DNA from: Bacteroidaceae bacterium
Lineage (GTDB): Bacteria; Bacteroidota; Bacteroidia; Bacteroidales; Bacteroidaceae
Direction: 5' to 3'
Assembly: GCA_017560945.1 (NCBI GenBank)
Contig: JAFZDY010000049.1
Span: 21,530 to 85,529 of the forward strand
Length of the DNA stretch: 64,000 bases
Shown here: one piece after another, positions 11,442 to 63,167 of the stretch
Layout: each line of letters starts with the position of its first letter
Position numbering within the stretch: position 1 is the stretch's first letter
Made by a program: the position numbers and the translations under genes
The notes under the pieces: generated by a model
Databases searched by the model: none
The model's input: only the letters and a program-made list of their open reading frames with translations
Told to the model about the DNA's origin: nothing

Positions 11442-11533
11442 CCTGTCTGAAAAATATTTTTTCTCTACCTGAGAAAAATAATTCCCTAACCTGAGAAAAA
11501 TAAATCGTTGACTTTAGAAAAATCAAGCACGGA
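11442..11533. repeat. 22-bp tandem array (CCTGAGAAAAATAA type)
   Basis: GAAAAAT elements occur at 11449, 11473, 11495 and 11517, i.e. steps of 24, 22 and 22 bases. Full units run 11468-11489, 11490-11511 and 11512-11533. It sits between the convergent PAP2 and glyA genes, after a run of C at 11408-11417. Unlike the other 22-bp arrays, the units are not obviously palindromic. Confidence 0.7.
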
Positions 11534-11571
11534 TTACGCAGAGCAAAATACTCATTGTGTAATCCGTGCTT
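11525..11571 (-). terminator. glyA terminator made of a dispersed repeat
   Basis: A perfect 13-bp inverted repeat (AAGCACGGATTAC, 11525-11537, with 11559-11571) is followed, in the minus direction, by GATTTTTC. The same CGGATTAC/GTAATCCG core recurs at 24133-24170, and related words recur at 57601-57670, 62835-62870 and 63755-63785. Confidence 0.65.
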
Positions 11572-11603
11572 ATGGTATGTTACCTTAACTTAATTGAGGA
11601 AAA

Positions 11604-12884
11604 TCAATAAGCAAAGATAGGATAGTTCTTCATTGTCTCGTTCACACGTTGACGAACACTTGCGATAACTGCTTCGTCTTCGGGGTTATTGAGAACTGTT
11701 TCAATCATTTCGGCAATCTCGAGCATGAGGTCTTCCTTAGCACCACGAGTAGTGATGGCGGGAGTACCCAAGCGGATACCTGAAGTTTGGAAAGCGCTAC
11801 GGCTATCGAAAGGTACCATATTCTTGTTCACTGTGATGTCAGCAGCTACGAGTGCTTTTTCGGCTACCTTACCAGTCAAGTCGGGGTACTTCTCGCGCAA
11901 GTCAACCAACATAGAGTGGTTATCAGTACCTCCACTTACGATGGTGAAACCGCGGTCGATGAGGGCTTGAGCCAACACTTGAGCGTTCTTCTGTACTTGA
12001 GCCTGATATTCCTTATATTCAGGTTGGAGGGCTTCGCCGAATGCTACGGCCTTAGCGGCAATCACGTGCTCCAACGGACCACCCTGCTGACCAGGGAATA
12101 CGGCACTATCGAGCAATTGTGACATCATCTTGATTTCACCCTTCGGAGTAGTCTTACCCCATGGGTTGGGGAAGTCCTTACCCATCATGATGATACCTCC
12201 ACGAGGACCACGGAGAGTCTTGTGGGTGGTAGAGGTCACGATGTGAGCATACTTCACGGGGTTTTCCAACAAGCCTGCGGCAATCAAACCTGCGGGGTGA
12301 GCCATGTCGACCATCAACAAAGCACCTACCTCGTCGGCCAAGCGGCGCATGCGAGCATAATCCCACTCACGTGAGTAAGCCGAACCACCACCAATGATCA
12401 ATTTTGGACGTTCGCGGCGTGCTACTTCCTCCATTTGCTCGTAATCTACACGACCAGTCTCCTTGTTCAAGTTATACTCGCACGGAGTGTAGAGGATACC
12501 GCTGGTATTTACCAATGAGCCATGGCTGAGGTGGCCACCATGAGCGAGATTCAAGCCCATGAACTTGTCGCCAGGATTCAAGCAAGCCAACAATACTGCA
12601 GCATTGGCTTGTGCACCTGAGTGAGGTTGTACGTTTGCCCACTCTGCACCGAAAAGTTCCTTCAAGCGGTCGATAGCAATCTGCTCGCTTTGGTCAACCA
12701 CTTCGCAACCTCCGTAGTAACGCTTGCCAGGATAACCCTCGGCATACTTGTTGGTCAAGCAACTACCCATGGCTTCCATTACCTGGTCGCTCACAAAGTT
12801 TTCAGAAGCAATCAACTCAATACCTTTCAGTTGGCGCTGATGTTCCTTCTCGATGATGTCAAAAATCAGTTCGTCTCTTTTCAT
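11604..12884 (-). CDS. glyA: serine hydroxymethyltransferase
   Basis: The protein has 426 residues, the usual bacterial length. GlyA converts serine and tetrahydrofolate to glycine and 5,10-methylene-THF, using PLP, in the cytosol. Visible marks are [19 protein letters not shown] near 22-40, the Tyr-rich [17 protein letters not shown] block, [14 protein letters not shown], and the PLP-lysine segment [15 protein letters not shown] near 217-231. It has two copies of a full promoter upstream and a repeat-derived terminator downstream, so it is a single-gene unit. Confidence 0.97.
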
Positions 12885-12924
12885 TGTAGTTTATATTATA
12901 ATTCCTTAATTTCAATTGAAAGTG

Positions 12925-12955
12925 CAAAGATAGTGCAAACCGAGCGGAATACAAA
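12925..12955 (-). promoter_or_regulatory. glyA promoter, proximal copy
   Basis: Minus strand TTTG (12952-12955), 19 bases, TATCTTTG (12925-12932): a perfect consensus about 40 bases before the glyA ATG. Confidence 0.8.
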
Positions 12956-13005
12956 ATAAATCCGCGTTTATTTTTATTCCCGAGGTGTAGCCTATTTTGG
13001 CGAAG

Positions 13006-13036
13006 CAAAGATAGTGCAAACCGAGCGGAATACAAA
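13006..13036 (-). promoter_or_regulatory. glyA promoter, distal copy
   Basis: Minus strand TTTG (13033-13036), 19 bases, TATCTTTG (13006-13013). It is identical to the proximal promoter because it lies in the second copy of the 52-bp repeat. Confidence 0.75.
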
Positions 13037-13078
13037 ATAAATCCGCGTTTATTTTTTCTTCATTAGGCGGATTTTTTG

Positions 13079-13086
13079 TATATTTG
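13079..13086 (+). promoter_or_regulatory. -7 promoter box for kdsB
   Basis: TATATTTG followed by CAC lies 40 bases before the kdsB ATG. Its -33 region falls in the distal glyA promoter repeat and shows no clear TTTG. Confidence 0.55.
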
Positions 13087-13125
13087 CACCCATATTTAAC
13101 AATCGAACGTAAAAACAAAAGTAAT

Positions 13126-13887
13126 ATGAAATTCATAGGAATAATCCCTGCAAGATATGCTTCTACACGTTTTCCCGCCAAGCCTTTGGCTTTGTTGGGC
13201 GGAAAGCCTGTGATTCAGCGCGTGTATGAACAGGTGAATGGTGTGCTCGACGAGGCATGTGTAGCTACTGATGATGAACGCATCGAGGCAGCGGTGAAGG
13301 CCTTTGGTGGCAAGGTGGTGATGACCTCTACCAATCACAAGAGTGGTACTGACCGTGTACAAGAAGCCTTTGAAAAGATAGGACAAGGATACGATGTGGT
13401 GGTAAATATTCAGGGGGATGAACCTTTTATCCAACCTTCACAACTGGAGGCGGTTAAGGCTTGTTTCGAGGATGAGGCTACACAGATAGCGACTTTGGTA
13501 AAACCCTTCGTAGAGGCTGATGGATGGGAGGCTTTGCAGAATCCAAATTCGCCCAAAGTTGTGGTGGACGGACGCATGAATGCCCTCTATTTTAGCCGTT
13601 CAGTAATACCTTACTTGCGTGGTGTGGAGAAGGAAGAGTGGTTGAAGAAACATACTTACTACAAGCATATAGGCCTCTATGCTTATCGTGCCGAAGTGTT
13701 GAAGGAGATTACCCGTTTGCCACAATCCTCCCTCGAGTTGGCTGAGTCGTTGGAGCAACTCCGTTGGTTGGAGAATGGCTACTGCATAAAGGTAGGAATA
13801 ACAAATACTGAAACTATAGGCATTGACACACCCGAAGACTTGGAGAAGGCAGAGAATTTCTTGAAGGAGAGGGAAGGACTCATTTAA
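13126..13887 (+). CDS. kdsB: 3-deoxy-manno-octulosonate cytidylyltransferase (CMP-Kdo synthetase)
   Basis: The protein has 253 residues from ATG 13126, the normal KdsB length. It activates Kdo with CTP to CMP-Kdo for lipopolysaccharide inner core synthesis. Family marks are KFIGIIPARYASTRFPAKPLA at the N-terminus (nucleotide binding), CVATDDERI near 45, HKSGTDRV, and VNIQGDEPFI near 98, followed by the HIGLYAYR block near 182. The longer reading frame from 13084 would start inside the promoter, which favours 13126. Confidence 0.95.
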   Translation: MKFIGIIPARYASTRFPAKPLALLGGKPVIQRVYEQVNGVLDEACVATDDERIEAAVKAFGGKVVMTSTNHKSGTDRVQEAFEKIGQGYDVVVNIQGDEPFIQPSQLEAVKACFEDEATQIATLVKPFVEADGWEALQNPNSPKVVVDGRMNALYFSRSVIPYLRGVEKEEWLKKHTYYKHIGLYAYRAEVLKEITRLPQSSLELAESLEQLRWLENGYCIKVGITNTETIGIDTPEDLEKAENFLKEREGLI

Positions 13888-13961
13888 AATATCATAGTTT
13901 GGTGAGGGGAAAACATGCTTCTCTTTGCGCTCAAAAATATAACATTGACACGATACACAAT

Positions 13962-15248
13962 ATGCTTGATCGAACGAAAAGGCCATCCGTCAAACCTCTG
14001 ATGGATTTAGACATTCAATCACCCAATCGGATATTTATGGCCAATGATGTACCCTTGAACGTACTGCATGTTGGCAATGCTGAGGTGGTGCGTATGGACA
14101 TATTGGTAGGGGCGGGCATTTGGCATCAGGAGTTGCCTCTACAAGCCCTCTTTGCCAACCGAATGTTGCGCGAAGGTACGGAGCGTATGAACTCGGCCGA
14201 AATCTCCGAGCGACTCGACTTCTATGGCGCTTGGGTTGAGTTGAGCACGTCCATGAACTACAGTTTTCTCACCCTCTATTCGTTAAACAAGCATTTTGCT
14301 CACACCCTGTCGGTGGTGGCCGATATGATGAAGAATCCGACCTTTCCCGAGGAAGAGATGCGTGTGACGGTGGACAACAATCGTCAACAATTCCTCGTGA
14401 ATAGCACGAAGGTAGATGTGATGGCTCGCAAGGAGTTCAGTCGCGCCCTCTTTGGTGATAGTCATCCGTGTGGCCGTCATGCTGTGTTGGAGGATTATGA
14501 CCAGCTTACTACTGAGGATTTGAGGGATTTCTATCGCAAATATTACCACTCGGTAAATTGCTCGATTTACCTTTCAGGAGCCATTTCGACGGAGATATTG
14601 ACGCAGATTGAACAGGAATTTGGCTCTTCTCCATGGGGTGGTGTAAAGCCCTGCGAGCCATTGTCCCCCTTGCCTGTCCCTCCTTATCAGGGAAGGCGCA
14701 TTCATCTCGAACACCCTACGGCTGTGCAAAGTAGTTTGCGCTTGGGATGTCCGTTGGTCGATCGATCGCATCCCGACTTTGCCGCTCTCAAAGTGTTGGT
14801 TACCGTTTTGGGTGGTTATTTTGGAAGCCGCTTGATGAGCAATATTCGCGAAGACAAAGGTTATACATATGGTATCAGTGCAGGAATTGCATCGTACCCT
14901 TTCCAAGGATATTTGGCCATAGGTACTGAGACGGCTAACGAGTACGTAGAGACTTGTATTGATGAGGTGAAGCACGAGATGCGTCGCTTGCAGGAGGAAC
15001 TAATACCCGAGCACGAGTTGTCCATGGTGAAGAGTTATATGATGGGTGAGATGTGTCGAAGTTACGAAGGACCCTTCTCACTTTCCGAAGCTTGGATTTT
15101 CTTGGAAACTGCAGGGTTGGAGAAGAATTTTTTCCAGATACTCGAGAAAAAAACATTAGGTGTAACGTCTCAAGAATTGCGCGAATTGGCCATCCGATAT
15201 TTCCGTCCAGATGAAATGTTGGAAGTGGTGGCAGGTAAGAGTGTGTAG
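13962..15248 (+). CDS. M16-family (pitrilysin-like) protein lacking the zinc motif
   Basis: The protein has 428 residues from ATG 13962. It has the two-domain M16 fold seen in the SREDKGYTYGISAGIASYPF-like region (here NIREDKGYTYGISAG near 308) and the N-terminal LLVGAG-like segment. Where active M16 peptidases have HxxEH, this one reads ALFANRMLREGTERM near 66, so zinc ligands are missing. Such proteins usually work as the inactive partner of an active M16 subunit or have another role; the partner is not in the window. An in-frame TTG/GTG start further upstream would overlap the region right after kdsB and is less likely. Confidence 0.75.
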   Translation: MLDRTKRPSVKPLMDLDIQSPNRIFMANDVPLNVLHVGNAEVVRMDILVGAGIWHQELPLQALFANRMLREGTERMNSAEISERLDFYGAWVELSTSMNYSFLTLYSLNKHFAHTLSVVADMMKNPTFPEEEMRVTVDNNRQQFLVNSTKVDVMARKEFSRALFGDSHPCGRHAVLEDYDQLTTEDLRDFYRKYYHSVNCSIYLSGAISTEILTQIEQEFGSSPWGGVKPCEPLSPLPVPPYQGRRIHLEHPTAVQSSLRLGCPLVDRSHPDFAALKVLVTVLGGYFGSRLMSNIREDKGYTYGISAGIASYPFQGYLAIGTETANEYVETCIDEVKHEMRRLQEELIPEHELSMVKSYMMGEMCRSYEGPFSLSEAWIFLETAGLEKNFFQILEKKTLGVTSQELRELAIRYFRPDEMLEVVAGKSV

Positions 15249-15392
15249 AGGCTTCTCGATGACCATTTTTACCCAATTGATTCTACTCATATGTGGTGGA
15301 TACGTGGGGTGTAGAATCTTTCGTTGATTAAACATTAATGCTTAAAAACAAAAGAAAACTTAACAAATGCTGATTGTCCGCCAAAGAAATTG

Positions 15393-15400
15393 TATCTTTG
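15393..15400 (+). promoter_or_regulatory. -7 promoter box for the MORN protein gene
   Basis: TATCTTTG lies 52 bases before ATG 15453. The -33 element is weak. Confidence 0.5.
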
Positions 15401-15452
15401 TCGAGAATTTTAAAAATCTAAGGTAAAAAGAGAGAATCCTACTATTTATAGA

Positions 15453-16595
15453 ATGAAGAGATTGATATACATGTCACTATTGGTTACATTGGCGTATGTG
15501 TCACCCGTAGCGGCTCAAAGCAAAAAGATAGGAACCTACACATTCAAAAGCGGAGATGTGTACACAGGAGAATTGAAAGGTTTCCCCATATTGGGATACA
15601 AACCGCACGGACAGGGAAAGACTTTGTTCGAAAATGGTGATATTTATGAAGGAAAATACGTCGATGGTAAGCGTCAAGGATATGGTGTGTACACTGTTCC
15701 CAATGGCAAACGCTACGAAGGCGAGTGGATGGATGACAAGCAACATGGAAATGGAAGTTTAGTCATGGCCAACAACAATCGCTATGAGGGCGAGTGGTGT
15801 GAGAATGTTCAACAAGGTCAAGGTGTAATGTATTACTTCAATGGTGACAAATATGTAGGTCAGTGGGTGGCCAACATGCGCGAGGGAGAAGGAACGTACA
15901 CTTGGGCAAATGGCGCACAATACGTGGGTGAATGGGTAGCCGACAAACGCGAGGGAAAAGGCGTCTATAGTTGGGAAAATGGTGAACGCTACGAAGGTGA
16001 ATGGAAGAATGGCATGATGCACGGAAAGGGCACTTATCAGTACGTGAATGGAGATACATATACGGGAGAGTGGCAACAGGACAAGATGCATGGAAAAGGA
16101 CTCTTCGTTGCTTGGGATGGCGAACGTTACGAGGGGGAATATCGTAAAGGTGAACGCTCGGGCATGGGTACTGTTACTTATGAAAATGGCGACGTGTACA
16201 CAGGACAGATGCTGAATGGCGCGGCTCATGGCGAAGGAACCTACACATGGAAAAACGGAGCCGTGTACAAAGGTGAGTGGAAAAATGACAAACGTCAAGG
16301 CAAAGGAACCTACACATGGGCTAATGGTGACGAATATGTAGGCGAATGGAAAGATAATAAAGAAAACGGACAAGGAATACTTCGTCAAACGAATGGGTTG
16401 AGATACGAAGGAGGATTTGTCAACGGACAAAAAGAAGGCGAAGGTGTACAAGAGAATGCCGAAGGTGTACGATTCAAAGGAGGATTCAAAGCCGACTTGA
16501 AGCATGGTGACTTTATAGAAACCGATGCCGATGGTAAAGAAATCCGACGAGGGTCGTACAAGAACGGAAGACTTGTGAACGAAATAAAGAAGTAA
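15453..16595 (+). CDS. exported MORN-repeat protein
   Basis: The protein has 380 residues with a signal peptide ending near VSPVAAQS. The rest is about 14 consecutive MORN repeats of 23 residues, each of the form YxGEW...GxGxxxxxNGxx. The first is longer (YTGELKGFPILGYKPHGQGK), and the last two diverge (FKGGF, IRRGSY). MORN repeats form an elongated beta-hairpin stack that binds proteins or lipids; export suggests a periplasmic or outer-membrane scaffold. No enzymatic motif is visible. The next gene, suhB-like, starts 18 bases downstream, so the two are probably co-transcribed. Confidence 0.85.
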   Translation: MKRLIYMSLLVTLAYVSPVAAQSKKIGTYTFKSGDVYTGELKGFPILGYKPHGQGKTLFENGDIYEGKYVDGKRQGYGVYTVPNGKRYEGEWMDDKQHGNGSLVMANNNRYEGEWCENVQQGQGVMYYFNGDKYVGQWVANMREGEGTYTWANGAQYVGEWVADKREGKGVYSWENGERYEGEWKNGMMHGKGTYQYVNGDTYTGEWQQDKMHGKGLFVAWDGERYEGEYRKGERSGMGTVTYENGDVYTGQMLNGAAHGEGTYTWKNGAVYKGEWKNDKRQGKGTYTWANGDEYVGEWKDNKENGQGILRQTNGLRYEGGFVNGQKEGEGVQENAEGVRFKGGFKADLKHGDFIETDADGKEIRRGSYKNGRLVNEIKK

Positions 16596-16613
16596 GAATT
16601 TGCGTATTAATAG

Positions 16614-17408
16614 ATGATTCACCTCGAAGAATTAACCACCCAAGTACGAAAGTTAGCCATTGAAATAGGTGCTTTCCTAAGAGAGGAGAGCCTTCACTTT
16701 CAACGTGAAAAGGTGCAGGAAAAGAATGCCCATGACTATGTTTCATACGTGGATAAGGAATCGGAGAAACGCATAGTTTCCCGTTTGCGTGAATTGCTTC
16801 CCGAAGCTGGATTCATTGCTGAAGAGGGAAGTGGAAACCTTACTACCGAAGAATATTGTTGGGTGGTTGATCCCTTGGATGGTACTACTAACTTCATCCA
16901 TCAGAATGCCCCCTTTTGTGTAAGCATTGCCTTGCGCAATCGTGAAGAGATATTGTTAGGTGTGGTGTACGAGGTGTGTCGCGACGAATGTTTTTGGGCG
17001 TGGAAGGGAAGTCCCGCATATTTGAATGGTGAAGAGATACACGTTACTTCGATAGACAATCTCGATCATGCGTTCATTGAAATAGGATTTCCCTACGATG
17101 CTGAACGATTTCGTCCCATTGTCACTCGGTTAATTGAGCGATTGTACGGACGTGTTGGAGGGGTACGCTTATTAGGTTCGGCGGCCGTGGAGTTATGCTA
17201 TATTGCCGCAGGCCGATTCGAAGCAAGATTTGAGGGATTGCTTGGCCCTTGGGATATTGCTGCAGGTACAATAATCCTGACACAAGCGGGAGGAAAAGTA
17301 ACCGATTTTCGCGGAGGTGATACCTTCTATTCGGGACACGAAGTGTTAGCTTCAAACGACCTCATACACCAACAATTACTTGAAATTATTGAGGAAATAC
17401 AAAAATAA
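16614..17408 (+). CDS. inositol monophosphatase family protein
   Basis: The protein has 264 residues with the full metal site of the IMPase family: the Glu of FIAEEGSGN near 64-72, WVVDPLDGTTNFIHQ near 82-96, and GPWDIAAGTIILTQAGG near 207-223. The family dephosphorylates inositol phosphates, 3'-phosphoadenosine nucleotides (CysQ) or related sugars. The lack of any sulphate-assimilation neighbours and the SuhB-like motifs fit a SuhB-type enzyme, but the substrate is not settled by sequence. It follows the MORN gene and ends at a terminator 3 bases later. Confidence 0.85.
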   Translation: MIHLEELTTQVRKLAIEIGAFLREESLHFQREKVQEKNAHDYVSYVDKESEKRIVSRLRELLPEAGFIAEEGSGNLTTEEYCWVVDPLDGTTNFIHQNAPFCVSIALRNREEILLGVVYEVCRDECFWAWKGSPAYLNGEEIHVTSIDNLDHAFIEIGFPYDAERFRPIVTRLIERLYGRVGGVRLLGSAAVELCYIAAGRFEARFEGLLGPWDIAAGTIILTQAGGKVTDFRGGDTFYSGHEVLASNDLIHQQLLEIIEEIQK

Positions 17409-17411
17409 AAG

Positions 17412-17431
17412 GGGAAAAAGCTATTTTTCCC
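17412..17431 (+). terminator. terminator after the IMPase gene
   Basis: GGGAAAAA (17412-17419) pairs with TTTTTCCC (17424-17431) across a 4-base loop, followed by TTTTTT. Confidence 0.7.
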
Positions 17432-17442
17432 TTTTTTCTTTC

Positions 17443-17450
17443 TATATTTG
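17443..17450 (+). promoter_or_regulatory. -7 promoter box for the YhcH-family gene
   Basis: TATATTTG lies 50 bases before ATG 17501 and directly after the preceding terminator. Confidence 0.5.
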
Positions 17451-17500
17451 TGGACATTTTAAAGAAATGGACATTTATTAACTTAACACATAAAAATAAC

Positions 17501-17941
17501 ATGATACTTGACACGCTTGACAATTTAGAGAAATACGTTTCCTTGAATCCCTTGTTTCCTCAGACAATTGAGTATTTGAAGAACACCGACTTGAATGCCT
17601 TGGAAGAGGGACAAGTGAAAGTGCTTGGTGATGATATTATAGTGAATGTTTCTCAAACCTTGCCTAAGGTTAAGGAAGATGCCAAGTTGGAAACTCATAG
17701 AAAGTATGTCGACATTCAGATTCCCCTCTCGGGATATGAAATTATGGGTTACACTTCGGCAAACGACCTTCCCATGGCTGAGTATGATGCGGAGAAAGAC
17801 GTAACCTTTTATGAGGGATTGGCAGAAAACTACTTTATCGTAAAACCTGGTATGTTCACCATTTTCTTTCCTCAAGATGGACATGCACCTGCTATTACCA
17901 ATACAGGTGTGAAGAAAATCATCGTAAAAATATTGGCATAA
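17501..17941 (+). CDS. YhcH/YjgK/YiaL family protein
   Basis: The protein has 146 residues from MILDTLDNLEKYVSLNP, the family's usual N-terminus. It is a cupin-like beta-sandwich family; ETHRKYVDIQIPLSGYEIMGY and the DGHAPAI segment (likely metal-ligand His) are typical. Members are linked to sialic acid and other sugar metabolism, with a proposed anomerase or isomerase role, so the exact reaction is uncertain. It is 39 bases before glgB and probably in the same transcript. An upstream in-frame ATG at 17450 would lie in the -7 box and is rejected. Confidence 0.8.
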   Translation: MILDTLDNLEKYVSLNPLFPQTIEYLKNTDLNALEEGQVKVLGDDIIVNVSQTLPKVKEDAKLETHRKYVDIQIPLSGYEIMGYTSANDLPMAEYDAEKDVTFYEGLAENYFIVKPGMFTIFFPQDGHAPAITNTGVKKIIVKILA

Positions 17942-17980
17942 TCTAACTTTAAAAAAATAAAACCCACCTCTATAGGAATC

Positions 17981-19996: not shown

Positions 19997-20011
19997 AGAA
20001 TCATATGAGTG

Positions 20012-20063: not shown

Positions 20064-20073
20064 TTCTTAATGA

Positions 20074-21276: not shown

Positions 21277-21303
21277 AAGTATTCATAAAATCAAACTACA
21301 AGG

Positions 21304-21792: not shown

Positions 21793-21794
21793 CG

Positions 21795-29726: not shown

Positions 29727-29849
29727 TTGGCAGGTGACGAGTGAATAGTGCTTTTAAATAATAGAATTTAGGAGCGTAAGCGACAAAGTACATAGATGAA
29801 GGGCATAAAGAATAGGACTTTGTGAAATAAAGGTACGGACTTTATGATA

Positions 29850-29935
29850 CTGCCTCGGTGCTGGCAGTTCGCTGCCTTGCTTATGGCAGTGTACTGCCTC
29901 CATGGTGGCAGATGTCTGCCAAAGTACTTTGGCAG
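29850..29935. repeat. 22-bp palindrome array (CTGCC/GGCAG type)
   Basis: CTGCC occurs at 29850, 29872, 29894 and 29916, exactly 22 bases apart. GGCAG occurs at 29863, 29885, 29907 and 29931. They form small hairpins GGCAG-4 nt-CTGCC (loops TTCG, TGTA and ATGT) or, in the alternative register, CTGCC-8 nt-GGCAG. The last unit, 29916-29935, is a perfect 20-bp palindrome. The array lies between the convergent permease and corA genes. Confidence 0.85.
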
Positions 29936-29964
29936 TGATTTCATAGGGGTTCTATTAAATAAAG

Positions 29965-42517: not shown

Positions 42518-42760
42518 AACAAAATTATTGAATCTTTAAACTCCCATTCAAATAGATGAAAAATATTTCTTTCACTTTGTCATTTGAAAGATGAAAAATT
42601 TAAGGTTTACTGTGCATATTTATGCAAGAATATGAGTGATAAATGAATATATATGCAGGATTCTACTTGTTTTTGGCTAATGAATTTTGTAGGAATGGGA
42701 ATATCTGGATGGGGAAATAGGGTGTACAAGAGGATGTAGATACAGATTGGTGATTAGACG

Positions 42761-42859
42761 GATGGCTATCGGACTTGTGACGGATGGCCATCGGAGTTTT
42801 ACATGAATAGCCATTTGTCTTGAGTTCGATGGCCATTTATCTTGAGTTCGATGGCCATC
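42761..42859. repeat. 22-bp palindrome array (GATGGCCATC type)
   Basis: GATGGCCATC or near copies start at 42761, 42783, 42805, 42828 and 42850, i.e. steps of 22, 22, 23 and 22. Copies 2 and 5 are perfect 10-bp palindromes. The 12-base spacers are partly alike: TCTTGAGTTC precedes copies 4 and 5, and CGGA/CGGAG follows copies 1 and 2. Confidence 0.85.
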
Positions 42860-48409: not shown

Positions 48410-48488
48410 CTCAAGCCTTGAATAAGGTAGGCTCATTCCCTGAATGAAGTAGTCAAAGGCCATGGATGAGGTAGGCTATTTGATAGGT
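48410..48488. repeat. 22-bp palindrome array (TGAATGAGGTAGG type)
   Basis: Units start at 48410, 48432, 48454 and 48476, exactly 22 bases apart. Each has a short dyad: TCAAG-C-CTTGA (48411-48421), TCATTC-3-GAATGA (48433-48447), CCATGG (48460-48465) and CTAT-3-ATAG (48476-48486). GGTAGG (or GTAGT) ends units 1-3. It lies in the divergent region between the GT2 and DUF3805 genes. Confidence 0.8.
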
Positions 48489-55844: not shown

Positions 55845-56576
55845 ATGGGAAGAGCATTTGAATATAGAAAAGCTGCAAAAATGAAAAGATGGGGCCACAT
55901 GGCCAAGACATTTACCCGCTTGGGTAAGCAAATTGCCATTGCCGTGAAGGCTGGAGGTCCCGATGCTGACACTAACCCCACATTGCGTTCAATCATCGCC
56001 ACTTGTAAGCGCGAAAACATGCCGAAGGACAACATCGAGCGTGCCATCAAGAATGCTATGGGTAAAGACCAAAGCGAATACAAGAGCATGACTTACGAAG
56101 GATATGGTCCTCACGGAGTTGCTGTGTTCGTTGACACCCTCACCGATAACACCACTCGCACCGTAGCCGATGTACGTTCGGTGTTCAACAAGTTCGGTGG
56201 TAACCTTGGTACTACAGGTTCACTCGCATTCCTCTTCGATCATAAGTGCGTGTTCACTTTCAAGAAGAAGGACGGTATGGACATGGAAGAGTTCATCCTC
56301 GACATGATTGACTTCGACGTAGAGGAAGACTACGAAGAGGACGATGAAGAGGGCACAATCACCATCTATGGTGCTCCCACCAGCTATTCAGCTATCCAGA
56401 AGCACCTCGAAGAGTGTGGCTTCGAAGATGTCGGTGGTGAGTTCACATACATCCCCAACGACCTCAAGGACGTGAACGAAGAGCAGCGCGCTACCCTCGA
56501 CAAGATGATCGAGCGCCTCGAAGAGTTCGACGACGTTCAGACGGTTTATACTAACATGAAGCCCGAGGAAGAGTAA
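55845..56576 (+). CDS. yebC: YebC/PmpR family protein
   Basis: The 243-residue protein has the family N-terminus MGRAFEYRKAAKMKRWGHMAKTFTRLGKQI, followed by CKRENMPKDNIERAIKNA and YEGYGPHGVAVFVDTLTDNTTRTVADVR. YebC-type proteins bind DNA or, as shown for related members, help ribosomes translate proline stretches, so the older label as a transcription regulator may be incomplete. An acidic segment (EEDYEEDDEEG near 160) is notable. A dispersed repeat ends directly at its start codon. Confidence 0.93.
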   Translation: MGRAFEYRKAAKMKRWGHMAKTFTRLGKQIAIAVKAGGPDADTNPTLRSIIATCKRENMPKDNIERAIKNAMGKDQSEYKSMTYEGYGPHGVAVFVDTLTDNTTRTVADVRSVFNKFGGNLGTTGSLAFLFDHKCVFTFKKKDGMDMEEFILDMIDFDVEEDYEEDDEEGTITIYGAPTSYSAIQKHLEECGFEDVGGEFTYIPNDLKDVNEEQRATLDKMIERLEEFDDVQTVYTNMKPEEE

Positions 56577-56712
56577 AAAAAAGAGATGCCCACCTGAAGC
56601 CTCTCTTGCAAAGGAGGACTTGGAGATTTGATATGCCCTTTTTTGTGTGTGTTGTCCAAGCCTTCTCCTTTACAGGAAAGGGGTAGGGTGGGTTTTTCTA
56701 TTCTGTAAGTTT

Positions 56713-56961
56713 ATGAAAATATCCTATAAGACTCAAGGTACCTGCTCTTCTCACATCAATGTGGAAGTTGAAGATGGTATCATCACCCACGTACAATTTT
56801 ATGGTGGGTGCAATGGCAATTTGCAAGGCATTTGTCGCCTTGTGACAGGGATGAAGGTGGAGGATGTGATTGCCCGACTCGAAGGCATCCAGTGCAACCA
56901 TCGTCCCACATCGTGCCCCGACCAACTTTGTCAAGCACTTCGTAGTTTGCCCACGACATAA
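56713..56961 (+). CDS. TSCPD-domain protein
   Basis: The 82-residue protein starts at MKISYKTQGTCSSHINVEVEDG. It is a single TSCPD domain with FYGGCNGNLQGICRLVTGM and the name-giving RPTSCPDQLCQAL near 62-74. The five to six Cys suggest metal binding. The domain also occurs at the C-terminus of B12-dependent ribonucleotide reductases; the free-standing form has no known function. The upstream 65 bases of open frame come from a dispersed repeat, so the internal ATG is preferred. Confidence 0.8.
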   Translation: MKISYKTQGTCSSHINVEVEDGIITHVQFYGGCNGNLQGICRLVTGMKVEDVIARLEGIQCNHRPTSCPDQLCQALRSLPTT

Positions 56962-57037
56962 TGGGGGGCTCTCTCCCTTACCCTACGCAAGGGAGGGAAG
57001 TAGATAGTATCTGAGCATTGAAAAACAAAAAAAATAT

Positions 57038-57460
57038 ATGTACAAAGCATTTCATTCCTTTCCCTTGGGGAAGGTAAGGGATGGGGTTTGTATTCTCACC
57101 CTTCTCCTTGTAGTGGCTTGTCACAAGGATACAAAGGCCGTGCGCTATGCTCGTGAGGCCATACACACCACGGCTCAGTGTCCCATGGCTATGGACGCCA
57201 ATACCACGTTGGATAGCATGACCTATACCGCCTCTCTTAACCGTTTTACCTATTATTATATGGTGAACGGCATTTCCGACTCCATCCTCATTGCAGGCGA
57301 ACAATTACTGCGCCAACAGGTTATTGATCGTTTGCTCAATGCTACGGACATGATACCCTATCTTCAGGATGGTGTATCCTTCCGATATGTCTATCGAACA
57401 AGTCCCACACCCCATCCGTTATTGGATTTTACATACGAAAATCCATCTCAGAAGAAATAA
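57038..57460 (+). CDS. small putative lipoprotein with repeat-derived N-terminus
   Basis: The protein has 140 residues. A hydrophobic stretch and lipobox (CILTLLLVVAC, Cys near residue 28) indicate a lipoprotein. The remainder (TLDSMTYTASLNRFTYYYMVNG, LLRQQVIDRLLNATDM) matches no family I can name with confidence. Codons 5-17 (FHSFPLGKVRDGV) are written in the same C/T-rich and G/A-rich words as the dispersed intergenic repeat (57050-57087). It seems a repeat has become the start of the gene or has replaced its native N-terminus. Start and expression are therefore less certain. Confidence 0.6.
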   Translation: MYKAFHSFPLGKVRDGVCILTLLLVVACHKDTKAVRYAREAIHTTAQCPMAMDANTTLDSMTYTASLNRFTYYYMVNGISDSILIAGEQLLRQQVIDRLLNATDMIPYLQDGVSFRYVYRTSPTPHPLLDFTYENPSQKK

Positions 57461-57726
57461 AAAGTTCAAAGTTTAAGGTTCAAAGAAGGAGACGGACCCC
57501 ATCCCTTACCTTCCCCTCTATGGGAAGGAGTAAATACCTCTAACAATGAAGTAGAGAATTCAAAGTTCAAAGTTTAAGATTCAAAGAAGGAGGAAGAGAA
57601 AAATAAATCCGCGCAATCCGCGCCTAAAGAATTAGAGGGAAAGGAATCCGCGTCATCTGCGGATGGAAAATTGTCCACAAGCCTCATGGCCAAATCAAAA
57701 CTCATAAATCATAAATCATAAATCAA
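57461..57726. repeat. composite intergenic repeat before the C_GCAxxG_C_C gene
   Basis: Two copies of a TTCAAAGTTTAAGRTTCAAAG word (57464-57486 and 57560-57588) flank a CCCATCCCTTACC...GGGAAGGAG hairpin-like word. Then come ATCCGCG repeats (57605-57665) and three CATAAAT units (57703-57723) ending three bases before the start codon. Confidence 0.7.
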
Positions 57727-58206
57727 ATGCAAATTACTCCTCAAGAACTCGATGCTTGTGTAGCTCGTGCCGTTGAACTCTTCAAGTCAGGCTTCAATTG
57801 CTCACAATCCGTGGTAGCAGCTTTTGCTCCCCTCTATGGCTACACCCAGGAGCAAGCACTCCGTATGTCAGCCTCCTTTGGTGGAGGCATTGGTCGTATG
57901 CGTCAGACGTGTGGCGCTGCTTGTGGCCTCTTCCTTGTCGCTGGCCTCGAAACAGGCTCCACCGACCCCACCGATCGTGAAGGAAAAGCCGCTAATTACG
58001 CACTTGTTCAACAGTTGGGTGAGCAATTCAAGGTCGCCAATGGTTCGCTCATCTGCGCCGATCTATTGGGCTTGAACAAGGCCGCCGACACACCTCCAAC
58101 TCCCGAAGCACGCACCGAGCAATACTATGCCAAGCGCCCCTGCTCACAGATAGTGGAGGAAGCTGCACGCATTTGGGCCGATTATTTGAAAAATCGCTAT
58201 CTTTAA
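57727..58206 (+). CDS. C_GCAxxG_C_C family protein
   Basis: The 159-residue protein has the family Cys pattern: FNCSQSV near 22-27, RQTCGAACGLFLVAGL near 61-76, SLICADLL near 104, and RPCSQIVEEAA near 137. The hydrophobic Gly-rich centre resembles a redox or metal-binding membrane-associated fold. The family is found near redox enzymes, and its function is unknown. The start is set by the end of the CATAAAT repeat. Confidence 0.85.
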   Translation: MQITPQELDACVARAVELFKSGFNCSQSVVAAFAPLYGYTQEQALRMSASFGGGIGRMRQTCGAACGLFLVAGLETGSTDPTDREGKAANYALVQQLGEQFKVANGSLICADLLGLNKAADTPPTPEARTEQYYAKRPCSQIVEEAARIWADYLKNRYL

Positions 58207-58457
58207 TCCTGTTGTTTAAGAAATATTGTTCTTTTTTTTAACTTTTGTGAGGTAGAATATATGTTGTAAAACATATTTTTTGTATCTTTGCACCCGTAAA
58301 AATCAGTCAAGTGTGGTGGAGACAATTTTTTAGGAGTAAAGGGCTATGTGTTAGCGGATACAAGTCGTTGCTCAAAGAGTTGAATCGTCAACTTCTTTTT
58401 AATACCATCCACCTCGCGAGGACTACATTATTCATGTCAAAAAAATAATAAAGAATT
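58207..58457 (+). promoter_or_regulatory. promoter and structured leader (or small RNA) before the winged-helix gene
   Basis: TATCTTTG at 58283-58290 is a strong -7 box, giving a leader of about 160 bases. Inside it, AGTTGA (58378-58383) pairs with TCAACT (58388-58393) over an ATCG loop and is followed by TCTTTTT, which resembles an intrinsic terminator. The leader may thus end early (attenuation) or be a separate small RNA of about 105 bases. A CCTCGCGAGG palindrome lies further on, near 58412-58421. Confidence 0.5.
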
Positions 58458-58658
58458 ATGTTGCAAGTAAAAGCAGGAGAAGTAGCAGGAAAAATTTGGA
58501 ATGCACTTAACGAAACTGAGGGCTTGACTCAGAAGCAAATCAAGAAGGCTACAAAGTTGGTTGATAAGGATTTTTTCCTTGGTTTGGGATGGTTGCTCCG
58601 CGAGGACAAGGTAGCCGTTTCAGAGGTTGAAAACGAACTCTTTGTAGTGCTGAAGTAA
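58458..58658 (+). CDS. small winged helix-turn-helix protein (DUF2582-like)
   Basis: The 66-residue protein matches the short winged-helix family common in Bacteroidota and archaea: VAGKIWNALNETEGLTQKQIKKATKLVDKDFFLGLGWLLREDKVAV, then a beta-wing. It probably binds DNA, but neither target nor signal is known. It has its own promoter and a structured leader, and ends at a terminator. Confidence 0.8.
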   Translation: MLQVKAGEVAGKIWNALNETEGLTQKQIKKATKLVDKDFFLGLGWLLREDKVAVSEVENELFVVLK

Positions 58659-58699
58659 TCATAAAGGTTATTTTAAAAGGAGTAAACAAAAGAAGAGAG

Positions 58700-58738
58700 A
58701 GAGAGGGTAGTGTCTCAGATGCAGGCACTATCCTCTCT
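58700..58738 (+). terminator. terminator after the winged-helix gene
   Basis: AGAGAGGGTAGTG (58700-58712) pairs with CACTATCCTCTCT (58726-58738) with one G-T pair, followed by TTTTTC. Confidence 0.75.
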
Positions 58739-58850
58739 TTTTCATTTGTGTATGTTTTCAGAATGATAGAGACATCATAAACTTGCATGGGGGAGTAAAC
58801 CAACTGAACTTTTTTACCGGACAACAATAAACAAAGAATAATATATACAT

Positions 58851-59423
58851 AAAAAATCCCCCTCCCATTTTCGCAAACAGGAAGGGGCTTAATTAATAAA
58901 AAAATGAACTGCAGGGGTGATTTCTCACCCCCACCTTATAATATGAATATCTATGTAGCCCTCCATCTTCACAGACAGAAAAACTACTACACAATTTAAA
59001 ACTTGTGGCAAATGTACAAGTTTCCATCCATATTGCCAAGAAAAAGAGGGGTGTATATACAAAAAATCCTCCCATTTTCACAAACAGGAGGACGTAGAAC
59101 AATTAAAAAACCGTATCTCCCTGATTTTCACAAACCGAGGAGATTCATCATGAAAAGTTATACAATCCTACAAGGCGATTGCTCACACTTGTACAGATCT
59201 AAAGATTCATTCTTTTACCTAATAACAAAACCCCCTATTTTCACAAACAAGGGACTTGAAAAACATATAAAAAAATCAGTTAAAATTACGTTTTGCAAAT
59301 GTATGTATTTCCCATCATATTACCAAAGAAAAGTGGTGATAATATCAAAAAAGCCCCCCATTTTCGCAAACGAGGGACTCCAAGAACCTTAAATATTAAA
59401 ATTGAATATGCGTTGCAAAGGTA
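58851..59423 (-). ncRNA. array of promoter/hairpin modules, putative tandem small RNAs
   Basis: Read on the minus strand, hairpins with the nearly constant loop GTTTGYGAAAAT lie at 59353-59377, 59231-59254, 59115-59144, 59067-59092 and 58857-58888, plus a degenerate one at 58959-58978. Stems differ but stay complementary (TCCTCC/GGAGGA, ATCTCC/GGAGAT, CCCT/AGGG, CCCC..GGGG). All but the degenerate copy are followed within 0-4 bases by a run of 4-6 T. Promoter-like boxes precede several: TACCTTTG at 59416-59423, TACATTTG at 59296-59303 (TTTG at 59324-59327) and TACATTTG at 59009-59016. A further GGGGTGA-GAAA-TCACCCC hairpin lies at 58914-58931. No plausible protein is encoded. Confidence 0.55.
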
Positions 59424-59465
59424 GGAAATATTTTTTAATTCTTCTCTTTTTTTTGGGGGGGATAA

Positions 59466-60296
59466 TCAGTAGAAGTGACATACGGGCCCATGTCCATTTC
59501 CAAGGGTGTAGTTAGCACCTTCGATGATGGCCTTGGTAATATACTCCTTGGCCATACAAACGGCTTTGGTGAGCGATTCTCCGCGTGCGAGGGCCGTGGC
59601 AAGTGCCGATGAGAGTGTGCAACCTGTGCCGTGTGTGTTGCGCGTCTCTATTCGCTTCGAGGGGAAGGAGGTGAGGGTGTCGTCCTCCACGTTGATGAGT
59701 TCGTCCACGAGCATCTCCCCCGCGAGGTGTCCCCCTTTGAGGAGTACCGATACCCCTGACTCATCTGCGAGGCGTTTGGCCACTTCTTGCAAACGGTCTT
59801 CATCGGTGATGTGGCATCCTATGAGAATTTCAGCCTCGGGTATGTTGGGTGTGATGACACGGCAGAGGGGCACAAGTTTTCGTTTCATCACCTCTATGGC
59901 TTCAGGCTCTATCAAGCGGTGCCCCGAGGTGGAAACCATCACGGGATCCAGCACCACATTCCTTATGCTATATTCCTTCACCTTGTCGGCCACCAGGTTC
60001 ACCACCTCAGCCGAGTGGAGCATCCCTATCTTCACCGCATCGGCTCCTATGTCCGAGAGTACGGCATCAATCTGCCCTGCAAGAATCTCAGTCGGCACAG
60101 GGTGTACGGCCTTCACCCCCAGGGTATTCTGTACCGTTACCGCCGTGATGGCCGATGCCGCATACCCACCCATGGCACTTATCGCTTTGATGTCGGCCTG
60201 AATGCCCGCCCCACCTCCAGAGTCGCTTCCCGCAATGGTGAGCACGCGTGCATACCTCTTTGGCGAGGTACAGGTTTCGTCAATGAGTTTTATCAT
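59466..60296 (-). CDS. thiD: hydroxymethylpyrimidine/phosphomethylpyrimidine kinase
   Basis: The 276-residue protein starts at ATG 60296, directly after the stop of the preceding gene (TAATATG); ATG 60311 is also possible. It phosphorylates HMP and HMP-P to HMP-PP for thiamine synthesis. The ribokinase-like fold shows LTIAGSDSGGGAGIQADIKAISAMGGYAASAITAVTVQNTLGV at 19-61, DPVMVSTSGHRL, VITPNIPEAEIL, LLKGGH, and the anion-hole/catalytic NTHGTGCTLSSALA near 226. It is last in the TPP-riboswitch operon. Confidence 0.94.
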   Translation of the reverse strand: MIKLIDETCTSPKRYARVLTIAGSDSGGGAGIQADIKAISAMGGYAASAITAVTVQNTLGVKAVHPVPTEILAGQIDAVLSDIGADAVKIGMLHSAEVVNLVADKVKEYSIRNVVLDPVMVSTSGHRLIEPEAIEVMKRKLVPLCRVITPNIPEAEILIGCHITDEDRLQEVAKRLADESGVSVLLKGGHLAGEMLVDELINVEDDTLTSFPSKRIETRNTHGTGCTLSSALATALARGESLTKAVCMAKEYITKAIIEGANYTLGNGHGPVCHFY

Positions 60297-60297
60297 A

Positions 60298-60873
60298 TTA
60301 TCGGTACGCATCTATCTCTTTCAGTTTGTTCAACACATCCATGTTATAAATAGCTCCCATCATTGCCACACCGCCAAAGTGCAACTTTTTCAAGTAAGGT
60401 ATTCTCTCGAGGGTCACTCCACCCATGGCAATCACCTTCCCATCGATTATGCCCCTTTCCGAGGCACTCAGCAACTCCTTTTCACTGAACCCCGCCAAGT
60501 ATCCCACCTTCGAAATACTGTCGAATATAGGGCTTAGAAACAGGTAGTCGTACTCAGCCTTGTAGCGCTCCACCTCCTCTATCGTGTGGCAAGACCTCGT
60601 CCTTAGGCCACCATAGCTCTTGGGAAAACTCTTTACGCGCCTGTTTATATGAATGCCTTTCAGCGAAAATTCCTCGTAGAGTTCAGGATAGTCATGTATG
60701 ACGATTTTGCTCCTTTCCTCAGGGGATAGTTTCCTCAGTATGTGCTTGCATTCGTGTACATCGGAGAGCGGTTTTCTCAGATGGATGGTGTCCACTCCCT
60801 TGGCAAGCAGGTGCGATATCAAACAAACATCCTCGTCCACCACCTTTGGCGATGTAATGGCAATGATTCTCAT
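60298..60873 (-). CDS. second thiamine-phosphate-synthase-like protein (ThiE/TenI family)
   Basis: The 191-residue TIM-barrel protein is of the ThiE/TenI superfamily: GVDTIHLRKPLSD near 27, IVIHDYPELYEEFSLKGIHINRR, YLFLSPIFDSISKVGY near 112, and VIAMGGVTLERIPYLKKLHFGGVAMMGAI. It lacks the usual ThiE DDxxLA segment, and its SPIFDSISK motif is TenI-like, so it may be a thiazole tautomerase or a divergent synthase. A bona fide ThiE is encoded first in the same operon. Its ATG overlaps the thi4 stop by four bases (ATGA). Confidence 0.8.
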   Translation of the reverse strand: MRIIAITSPKVVDEDVCLISHLLAKGVDTIHLRKPLSDVHECKHILRKLSPEERSKIVIHDYPELYEEFSLKGIHINRRVKSFPKSYGGLRTRSCHTIEEVERYKAEYDYLFLSPIFDSISKVGYLAGFSEKELLSASERGIIDGKVIAMGGVTLERIPYLKKLHFGGVAMMGAIYNMDVLNKLKEIDAYR

Positions 60874-61643
60874 TTTTTCAAGGCTTGTATGATGAGTTCA
60901 GCCACTTTCTTACCCGATAGCAGCATACCTCCGAAGATGGGTCCCATCCTTGGAGTGCCACTTACGGCAGATGCAGCCATACCACACACGTAAAGTCCTG
61001 GATAAATCTCTTTGGTACCATTTACCACCTCATTCTCTCCTGCAACAACATCCAAGGAGCGTTCACCTATCACATCACCCGTATCGGTTGCCAGTCGTAT
61101 CCCATTCTTGCGAGCTACAGTAGCACACATTTCGCTATCGTGACCCGTACCATCTACTACACATTTCGCCATAATATTGAGCGGATCCACGTGCATCCCT
61201 TCCCTCAACACGGGAGTCCAATTGACCACCACACCGCTCACCACATTGTTTTTGAATATGACATCCTCTACCGAGTAGCAATTGAATATGGTAGCCCCTT
61301 CGTGCACGGCCTTGTATAGTAGGGCAGAGGTGCTCTCCACCGAGTCCATTACATACAGGTTGTCCTCGTATGGTTCATAGTTGATGTCAAACTCTTTGAT
61401 AATGTGCAGGGCCTCTTCCTGAACAACTATTTGGTTAAACATCATGGCACCTCCCCACATACCCCCTCCAGGAGAGAGTTTTCGATCAAACTGAGCCACC
61501 TTCAATCCCGCCTTAGCCAGATAATAAGCAGCGACAATACCTGATGGACCACCTCCTACAATGGCTACATCCAAATCTAAATTTCTTTCCAATTTTTTGA
61601 AATAGGTAGCGATAATACCCTGAGAAACTTTTTTTTCAATCAT
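60870..61643 (-). CDS. Thi4-type thiazole synthase
   Basis: The 257-residue protein has the Rossmann nucleotide site DVAIVGGGPSGIVAAYYLAKAGLKVAQFDRKLSPGGGMWGGAMMFN near 24-69, VDGTGHDSEM near 165, and the C-terminal YVCGMAASAVSGTPRMGPIFGGMLLSGKK. This is the Thi4/Thi1 family, which makes the ADP-thiazole precursor from NAD and glycine. Yeast Thi4 donates sulphur from its own Cys205. At the corresponding place, counting from GHD to the next ARK/AKR, this protein has Val, and a Cys occurs three residues earlier. By this hand alignment it looks like a non-suicide, sulphide-using type. It replaces the ThiG/ThiH route in this operon. Confidence 0.88.
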   Translation of the reverse strand: MIEKKVSQGIIATYFKKLERNLDLDVAIVGGGPSGIVAAYYLAKAGLKVAQFDRKLSPGGGMWGGAMMFNQIVVQEEALHIIKEFDINYEPYEDNLYVMDSVESTSALLYKAVHEGATIFNCYSVEDVIFKNNVVSGVVVNWTPVLREGMHVDPLNIMAKCVVDGTGHDSEMCATVARKNGIRLATDTGDVIGERSLDVVAGENEVVNGTKEIYPGLYVCGMAASAVSGTPRMGPIFGGMLLSGKKVAELIIQALKK

Positions 61644-61680
61644 AATTTAAGTATTTTAAAAGTTAGTTATTATTCAAGAC

Positions 61681-62361
61681 TTATTTCTTCGTGAAATAAC
61701 TCATTATCATCTCCATCTCCTTGGTTGGATTGTCAGCATTCAGTATACTACCGCTCAATGCAATCCCATCCACACCACATCGCAACAATTCAGGAACATC
61801 CTCCTTGCATATCCCTCCTATGGCCACCAGCGGAATGCAGATGTTTCTTTTCTTCATTTCGCTCATGATATGCCTATACCCTTCGTAACCGAGTATGGGG
61901 GAGAGATTCTTTTTGGTAGATGTAAAACGGAAGGGGCCACAACCGAAATAATCAGGAGTGGCCAATTGAAGATTGCACACAATGTCTTCGAACGAGTTTA
62001 TGGTACTGCCAATGATGTACCTGTCTCCAAGCACCTCTCGGGCTTTTGCTACAGGCATATCATGTTTACCTAGGTGCACCCCGTTAGCACCTATTATCTT
62101 TGCAAGAGCTACATTGTCGTCAATAATGAATGTAGCATCATATCTCTTGCACATTTCCTGTACAACGAGGGCGGTCTTTTCAAACAGGGCTTCATCCGCA
62201 TCCTTCATGCGTAGTTGTATCCATCTACAACCTCCATCCAGTGCAATACGTGCGGAGTCAATGTAAGAGTACCTGTCATTGTAGTGAGTGATAAATTGCA
62301 CACTACAATTCAGTGAGGTAGGGGAGTCCTTCAGCATACCAGTAGAAATATGGGTCTTCAT
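61681..62361 (-). CDS. thiE: thiamine phosphate synthase
   Basis: The 226-residue protein starts at ATG 62361; ATG 62337 is also possible and gives a more typical length. It joins HMP-PP and the thiazole phosphate to thiamine phosphate. Family marks are QFITHYNDRYSYIDSARIALDGGCRWIQLRMKDAD, FIIDDNVALAKIIGANGVHLGKHDMP near 95, GPFRFTSTKKNLSPILGYEGY near 160 and VAIGGICKEDVPELLRCGVDGIALSG. The longer reading frame to 62481 starts inside the TPP aptamer and is rejected. It is the first gene of the operon. Confidence 0.93.
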   Translation of the reverse strand: MKTHISTGMLKDSPTSLNCSVQFITHYNDRYSYIDSARIALDGGCRWIQLRMKDADEALFEKTALVVQEMCKRYDATFIIDDNVALAKIIGANGVHLGKHDMPVAKAREVLGDRYIIGSTINSFEDIVCNLQLATPDYFGCGPFRFTSTKKNLSPILGYEGYRHIMSEMKKRNICIPLVAIGGICKEDVPELLRCGVDGIALSGSILNADNPTKEMEMIMSYFTKK

Positions 62362-62442
62362 TGTCATTATAAAAATCATTATCCAACACAGAGGAAACGG
62401 CTTTCTCCAAAGCCATATACATACAATGAATACCAATTTTCT

Positions 62443-62522
62443 ACCGTTTCCCTGCGCTGTTATTATACATATCAGGTTCATAGGGTATCATCTCAGCCGA
62501 GCACGTGCTCAGCACCCCTAAC
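62443..62522 (-). promoter_or_regulatory. TPP riboswitch (THI element)
   Basis: On the minus strand, TTAGGGGTGCT begins the P1 stem, followed by CGGCTGAGATGATACCC, TATGAACCTGAT, TAATAACAGCG and CAGGGAA: all invariant blocks of the TPP aptamer in order. It sits between the promoter (62530-62537) and thiE, so thiamine pyrophosphate should shut down the thiE-thi4-thiE2-thiD operon. Confidence 0.93.
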
Positions 62523-62529
62523 AGCGTCG

Positions 62530-62537
62530 CAAAGGTA
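62530..62537 (-). promoter_or_regulatory. -7 promoter box for the thi operon
   Basis: Minus strand TACCTTTG followed by CG, a few bases upstream of the TPP aptamer. Confidence 0.65.
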
Positions 62538-62605
62538 ATGAGTTTTTTTCATACCCACCAAACAAAATTCATAGTTTTTTCATCCGTCATTCCCTCAAAA
62601 AAACA

Positions 62606-62627
62606 TCCTCCAACCTTAGTTGGAGGA
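62606..62627 (-). terminator. terminator after the smalltalk gene
   Basis: TCCTCCAAC (62606-62614) pairs with GTTGGAGGA (62619-62627) across a 4-base loop. On the minus strand it is followed by TGTTTTTTT. It lies 20 bases after the smalltalk stop and insulates the thi operon. Confidence 0.8.
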
Positions 62628-62647
62628 CTCAATACACTTTTTTTTAA

Positions 62648-62743
62648 TCACATACAACTCAACATCCCAAGGCTCGTGCCAATGGCCGTGAGGATGGAAA
62701 TTAGTGTTTGTATCACTATTTTCCAAATTTCACGTTTTTCCAT
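62648..62743 (-). CDS. smalltalk-family small protein
   Basis: The protein has 31 residues, with sequence beginning MEKREIWKIVIQTLISIL and ending TSLGMLSCM. It has a short charged start, one hydrophobic helix and a terminal Ser-Cys-Met. This matches the Bacteroidota smalltalk peptides, which typically lie between an HU-family gene and an N-acetylmuramoyl-alanine amidase gene, near DUF4248. Neither HU nor amidase is present here, but a DUF4248 gene is divergent 630 bp away. Function is unknown; a membrane or lipid-anchored peptide is likely. It has its own terminator. Confidence 0.75.
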   Translation of the reverse strand: MEKREIWKIVIQTLISILTAIGTSLGMLSCM

Positions 62744-63101
62744 AGGTAAAAGGTTTAAAGTTCAAAATTCAAGGTTCAAAGTTCAAGATTAGTTCGCTAT
62801 CGCTCATCAAGCTACGCGAGTCAAAATTCAAATTAGGCACGGATGACACGGATTAACACGGATTTATTTTTATTGCCATCATTGTCAAAACTATCTACTC
62901 CTTCCCCTTGGGGCGTAGCAAGGCCTCGAGAATTGATTAAATATCAATTCGTGCCGTAGCGAGGGGAGCATAGTGCCCTATGCGACGGAGGCGGTAAGGG
63001 ATGGGGTCCGCTGGGGGTGAGTCTCTACTTCTTTTCTTCTTTCTTTTAAAAGATGTTTACATAATCATTATTGTTGGGACCGACCTTGGAACAAACCCCT
63101 A

Positions 63102-63167
63102 TACTTTGATTATCAAACCCTGGTACCTTGGTCATCAAACTTCTGTACTTTGGTCAATCGCCATCAC
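63102..63167. repeat. 22-bp array (TACTTTGGTCATCAAAC type)
   Basis: TACTTTG, TACCTTG and TACTTTG start at 63102, 63124 and 63146, exactly 22 bases apart. Unit 1 holds the perfect dyad TTTGAT-T-ATCAAA (63105-63117), and unit 2 an imperfect version. A possible older unit lies at 63082. Confidence 0.7.

Follow-up and report, generated by a model that had tools for sequence, protein, structure and literature searches.

The window, a term used here for the whole stretch of 64,000 nucleotides that was analysed (contig JAFZDY010000049.1 of a Bacteroidaceae bacterium), contains five arrays of short tandem units that recur every 22 bases (Table 1). An initial annotation had already placed the five arrays and given them this period, and direct reading and a lag scan agree with it on both points. 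It had also situated all of them between genes and, indeed, they lie outside the genes called by codon score; small mechanical open reading frames overlap arrays 3 and 5. The two halves of array 3 run in opposite orientation and, in consequence, the whole array is one long inverted repeat. Regarding the immediate surroundings, array 2 is directly preceded by a two-copy repeat of 22 base pairs (bp) at 29805-29847 (Tandem Repeats Finder, TRF), and a run of ten C is found at 11408-11417, between the stop codon of the PAP2-family gene and array 1.

Table 1. Positions, composition and scores of the five arrays of the window (dyad p, probability in the dyad test for each array on its own)
Array	Position	Units	Family or core	Gene gap	Lag score	Dyad p
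1	11431..11526	about 4.4 units of 22 bp	family D, TTTTCTCAGGTTAGGGAAAA-like	between convergent PAP2-family and SHMT genes	27.8 (lag 22)	0.246
2	29848..29937	four CTGCC..GGCAG dyads	family C	between convergent MacB/FtsX-type permease and CorA genes	13.8 (lag 22), 15.8 (lag 44)	0.003
3	42757..42858	two period-22 halves, opposite orientation	GATGGCCATC cores		15.6 and 25.6 (lag 22)	0.229
4	48410..48474	three units of 22 bp		between divergent genes	14.4 (lag 22)	0.346
5	63092..63156	three units of 22 bp	diverged family B member, CCAAACTATATAGTTTGG-like		18.8 (lag 22)	0.047

The lag scan measures self-match at a fixed offset (scoring +1/-1.2) and counts the segments that reach a score of at least 14. 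When applied, with no segments dropped, to the 9,573 bases of intergenic DNA of the window at lags 8 to 60, it yields five segments at lag 22 and one at lag 44, together with three at lag 14 and two at lag 21 (these last five are all 7-base microsatellites), and zero at all remaining lags. Dinucleotide shuffles give 0.002 segments per lag for this DNA, and shuffled controls range from 0.002 to 0.006. Chance, which had been deemed unlikely in the initial annotation, is excluded.

The same period dominates the genome to which the window belongs (hereafter, the own genome). Its sample consists of 61 stretches, i.e., 1,119,959 bases or 48% of the genome, with 177.8 kilobases (kb) between genes, and the genome-scale counts were made after removal of 7-9-base microsatellites (segments >55% self-similar at lags 7-9). 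In this sample, 52 segments occur at lag 22, 10 at lag 21, 7 at lag 23, 22 at lag 44, 4 at lag 46 and 2 at lag 42, and no lag outside 21-23 and 42-46 exceeds 3 segments; in total, 69 segments correspond to lags 21-23, 28 to lags 42-46 and only 15 to every other lag from 10 to 60. The excess at 22 bases over other periods, a lack of which would have refuted the initial annotation by its own test, is therefore present in this 48% of the genome. A relative of the same genus (G012; 60.7 kb of intergenic DNA) behaves likewise, with 8, 27 and 7 segments at lags 21, 22 and 23, respectively, 25 at lags 42-46 and 17 elsewhere (maximum 3 per lag). The 937 kb of coding DNA from the same stretches of the own genome show mostly multiples of 3, with three segments at lag 22 and no peak at 21-23, and no segment was detected in Escherichia coli K-12 (five 50-kb stretches, 33 kb between genes). 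Near-perfect duplications, counted after dropping segments >50% self-similar at short microsatellite lags, are concentrated at the same lengths: of those in the own genome, 32 fall at 21-23, 9 at multiples and 8 anywhere else between lags 10 and 150, and for G012 the corresponding figures are 30, 12 and 11. The own-genome sample holds 67 non-overlapping arrays and, by extrapolation, the whole genome may hold about 140.

Beyond these two genomes, 11 further Bacteroidales genomes were sampled (29 stretches, 69.5 kb of intergenic DNA; segments >55% self-similar at lag 7 were dropped from the per-genome counts). Pooled, they give 2, 5 and 1 segments at lags 21, 22 and 23, respectively, 9 at lags 42-44 and 3 at all other lags. 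The 21-23 peak appears, with other core sequences (tandem CAAACAATATTGTTTG in G009, tandem GTTTCCCCGGTGGGAAAC in G016), in four of the 11: G009 and G011, labelled as the same genus, and G015 and G016, of the same family, G015 having one segment only, at 23. No segment at 21-23 was found in the samples of the other seven (G001, G003, G017, G018, G020, G021 and G026), the three same-order genomes included, or in the single 20-kb stretch taken from each of the closer relatives G002 and G005. The 22-base trait is, in short, patchy across the sampled relatives, the samples being small.

The sequences that share this period group into families, each of which accounts for between 7 and 24 places or matches in the own genome. 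The initial annotation regarded the arrays as unrelated in sequence, which holds among the five themselves; nevertheless, all except array 4 are members of families dispersed over at least seven places each. Thus, the family of array 1 has 24 matches in the own genome at E<=0.01 (itself included, many of them short); family C, which includes array 2, has 10 matches in the own genome, to which six relatives add 24; the family of array 3 occupies 7 places in the own genome, including itself, and has matches in G012, G005 and G007; and family B has 17 places, array 5 among them (recovered by the family B query with 78% identity, as G000:C48:84618-84685, and having a 91% copy in L288). Array 4 has no second copy in the 1.12 Mb sampled from the own genome. 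Two other families are (i) family A, with CTTAAG cores, which is found at 23 distinct places of the own genome, with further matches in six relatives; and (ii) family E, with 16 distinct places. A whole-genome pattern search returned 81 CTTAAG pairs vs 10 for the reversed pattern, the spacing being 21 or 22 in all but one among the matches listed. Families A, B and E have a non-repeated leader and tail, which family C lacks; copies of family B differ by whole 22-bp units; and one intergenic region can house several families. No match was found in plasmids to one family A element, nor in phages to one family E element.

In its long form, family A combines several modules into a mosaic, 21-23-bp units being present in some of these modules; in 10 of 12 cases this form lies upstream of a gene in the same direction. 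Such mosaics were noted at L183:1330-1990, L170, L177, L236, L238 and L239 in the own genome, and at L171, L178 and L184 in G012; the genes downstream include some with PLD domains (L236, L239) or a metallo-beta-lactamase fold (L170), and in some mosaics the 5' leader is long and includes a terminator-like hairpin. As for family C, its arrays are found near contig ends in four contigs (L110, which is G000:C14, and C7, C22 and C55). At L110 the array adjoins two paralogous permease-like genes and, hence, the repeats may have broken the assembly there.

Arrays come and go between related species. Twelve of 90 collinear gap pairs hold an array: in the own genome only in 3 cases (two loci), in the relative only in 6, and in both in 3. 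Array 1 is absent from the gap between the same gene pair in G006 and G012, and the gap of array 3 measures 651 bp in the own genome vs 137 bp, without the array, in G012. One CTTAAG array common to both genomes numbers 4 units in the own genome vs 7 in G012, and the two differ in their version of the unit. A shared array of family D has been kept in place with some symmetric change and, at L264, a two-copy, non-dyadic 22-bp duplication adjoins another array, the own genome having one copy.

Many units have a dyad-symmetric core. Under a null in which the columns of each array are permuted and the period is kept, dyads reach p<=0.05 in 61 of 106 arrays (microsatellites removed as in the genome-scale counts), about 5 being expected, and, by our reading of the list of consensus sequences, at least 10 different dyad cores are involved. 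The description of four of the five window arrays as palindromic was too strong for the arrays taken singly, since arrays 2 and 5 alone pass a dyad test. In alignments of families C (24 of 25 places), A (19 of 22 places, second hits of the same place omitted) and E (13 of 13 places), the half-sites are nearly invariant and the spacers vary, a pattern that suits a protein recognising the sequence better than it suits structure by itself. As for covariation, the score of the whole structure was matched by 3 (C), 0 (E) and 0 (A) of 500 shuffles; slid controls beat the observed score in family C and, for one measure, in family A and, in consequence, any signal of compensatory change must be regarded as weak.

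The period, the dyad excess, the intergenic placement, the dispersal of families, the turnover between species and the whole-unit differences between copies establish a class of repeats. Since the same period occurs in unrelated sequences and in several genomes, one rule is likely to lie behind it. To this extent the proposal of the initial annotation, one process rather than spread of one repeat, stands, while its second half does not, as the arrays do spread as families. Our tentative preference, short of an even chance, is that these are dispersed, non-coding, minisatellite-like intergenic repeats whose two-turn spacing is kept by one or more dimeric proteins. The arrays share a unit length of 22 (21-23) bp, in many cases around a dyad-symmetric core; families spread to new intergenic sites, and arrays gain or lose units, which would supply variation. 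On the preferred reading, each unit would serve to bind a DNA-binding protein in dimeric form (a factor of transposition or of chromatin, or more than one such factor), and neighbouring dyads would be contacted on the same face of the helix, selecting or stabilising the two-turn spacing, much as plasmid initiators do on iterons. We infer cooperative binding on one helix face because it is the most economical reading of dyads two turns apart with nearly invariant half-sites.

Several points weigh against this proposal. The binding protein and any transposase are themselves postulates; 45 of the 106 arrays fail the dyad test; the count of those that pass overstates its own weight, because related copies are not independent; a step of 22 bp implies 11.0 bp per turn vs the 10.5 expected for relaxed B-DNA; and at collinear gaps clean insertion ends or target duplications could not be read, because the flanks rarely align. 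Moreover, near-perfect (probably young) arrays pass the dyad test less often (16 of 41), and some of them have no dyad at all, so a length-measuring mutational process fits this result as well. Such a process, in which an enzyme or a repair pathway would duplicate about 22 bp of arbitrary intergenic sequence, with dyads arising secondarily or aiding persistence, is the main rival and, in our opinion, a real if doubtful possibility: near-perfect duplications are also mostly of 21-23 bp in both the own genome and G012, and the duplication at L264 is non-dyadic. It accounts poorly for dyads far above chance and for the many arrays that are dispersed copies of one family instead of fresh duplications; the peak is also missing from coding DNA, though selection could remove it there. 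The data do not firmly separate a spacing kept by proteins from a 22-bp copying ruler. It seems rather unlikely, though worth stating, that a dedicated machinery with a 22-bp ruler (a DNA-binding oligomer or recombinase of two-turn geometry) makes and maintains arrays from arbitrary sequence, so that spacing, not sequence, would be conserved across Bacteroidaceae; if so, the arrays would be a sequence-free chromosomal element. Ordinary replication slippage, with a coincidentally shared period, is hardly credible: tandem repeats are common in bacteria and unit number does change between copies and species, but other periods are nearly absent, the shuffles give next to nothing and E. coli K-12 gives no segment in its 33 kb.

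Gene context and folding bear on two further explanations. Arrays in the own genome lie in 16 convergent, 32 co-directional and 11 divergent gaps (plus 8 at stretch ends), and these gap types follow the background (41, 99 and 38, respectively, among gaps >=150 bp in a 726-kb sample of the own genome); arrays in co-directional gaps are located mid-gap, slightly nearer the stop of the upstream gene (mean 0.45, p 0.049; 58 gaps, own genome and G012). If each family were a multi-site operator for its own dimeric regulator, the dyads, the nearly invariant half-sites, the two-turn spacing and the position of the long family A elements would be well explained; the background rate between convergent genes, the mid-gap position and the fast turnover between species make this improbable. 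More improbable still are hairpins acting at the RNA level, either as clustered terminators or as transcript-stabilising structures. In their favour, 52 of 89 arrays have a fold z below -3 vs dinucleotide shuffles, and arrays 2 and 3 reach -6.3 and -10.0, respectively, array 3 folding as one long hairpin. On the other hand, arrays 1, 4 and 5 do not outdo shuffles in folding; random flipping of units yields versions more stable than the real arrays (mean rank 0.67, p 5e-6), which also gain no stability over permuted units (0.45, p 0.13), the permutation tests having omitted the 17 of 106 arrays with under three units; co-directional arrays with a dyad match >=0.55 show no sense-strand excess of G-T over A-C mismatches (73 vs 94, p 0.12), i.e., no wobble bias; arrays are also found between divergent genes; and three Rfam matches at gathering scores in four sources (the window, L003, L014 and L012) include none at an array. 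An RNA hairpin function is accordingly not supported by wobble, unit flips and permutations, gap orientation, fold z and Rfam, with the stable folds just mentioned as the contrary evidence. Taken together, strand, fold and placement results argue against terminators or transcript structures and, more weakly, against ordinary operators.

Among described systems, BrickBuilt is the nearest and PINSR the nearest in Prevotella, and the arrays are best read as kin in kind to both. As far as the consulted portion of its report goes, BrickBuilt is a minisatellite/miniature inverted-repeat transposable element (MITE) of Porphyromonas gingivalis with 23-nucleotide (nt) units and 19 copies, some with a leader and tail; its copies form a single family by sequence, carrying IS5-like terminal inverted repeats, GAGACCTTYGCA / TG(C)AAAGGTCTC, and 22-nt and 41-nt repeats had been noted earlier in strain W83 (PMC4596501). 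The likeness lies in the short tandem units of a Bacteroidales genome, intergenic and dispersed, whose number varies among strains or copies (PMC4596501). The unit measures 23 nt vs 21-23 here, with a mode of 22, a comparison of unit length and not of unit sequence; a leader and tail are matched by families A, B and E but not by C; and one family there contrasts with many unrelated families here. None of the four printed BrickBuilt ends matched, with up to one mismatch, within 350 bp of the 106 arrays, and the long stem-loops stressed in the available text on BrickBuilt (PMC4596501) are an arrangement not favoured here. PINSR, according to the accessible part of its description, is a 188-bp repeat of a Prevotella clade, with 177-184 copies, no terminal inverted repeats and unknown function; compared by description only, it is likewise a dispersed intergenic non-coding repeat, but it is one family and that part does not mention a period (PMC4755523).

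Repetitive extragenic palindromic sequences (REP) and bacterial interspersed mosaic elements (BIME) resemble the arrays, in the passages available, in their clustered intergenic palindromic units (PMC3733652, PMC2817692). With regard to REP-associated tyrosine transposases (RAYT), no Y1_Tnp domain (PF01797) was found in the own genome, which is 82% complete, and GTAG/CGTC tags are not enriched (88 in the 106 arrays vs 112, standard deviation 10, in shuffles). In plasmid iterons, proteins bind one face of the helix at tandem sites spaced by about two turns. They provide a geometric parallel, whereas the arrays are chromosomal, dispersed, of many families and often dyadic; no replication initiator domain was found with Pfam in nine genes near the five window arrays. 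A description of one period over many unrelated families was not found in the literature consulted, subscription papers being mostly out of reach.

Sequence is the usual criterion for delimiting a repeat family in bacteria; here, it is the spacing that is common to many unrelated families of one genome and that recurs in relatives. This spacing offers a clean, testable way into the question of what builds and keeps the intergenic repeats of gut Bacteroidaceae, and reports that have stood apart, BrickBuilt with its 23 nt among them, may prove to be connected. A protein that reads the spacing would represent a chromosomal DNA-binding system of a new kind, and a copying reaction that sets it would represent a mutational signature equally new.

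Other repeats were also observed. In G012, three two-copy repeats have a lag of 33, about three helical turns (L256:3640-3705, L265:10083-10135 and L274:14101-14165), of which the first and the third look palindromic. The window contains a perfect intergenic tandem duplication of 81 bp (12924-13056). Microsatellites with 7-base, TTCAAAG-like units are abundant, both in the window (57461-57725, 62750-62790 and 63817-63860) and elsewhere (L010:17524-17625, L014:16333-16424 and L018:9379-9525), and several 7-base microsatellites flank a recurring stretch, AGTTCGCTATCGCTCATCAAGCTACGCAAGTC. The closest named permease homologues, 54-71% identical, come from metagenome-assembled genomes of sheep, goat and roe deer gut labelled as Bacteroidaceae bacteria, on which basis the own genome was taken to belong to this family. 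Finally, a thiamine pyrophosphate (TPP) riboswitch (62432-62529, minus strand; Rfam RF00059, 63.9 bits) is located where a thiamine phosphate synthase-type gene (61681-62481) begins.

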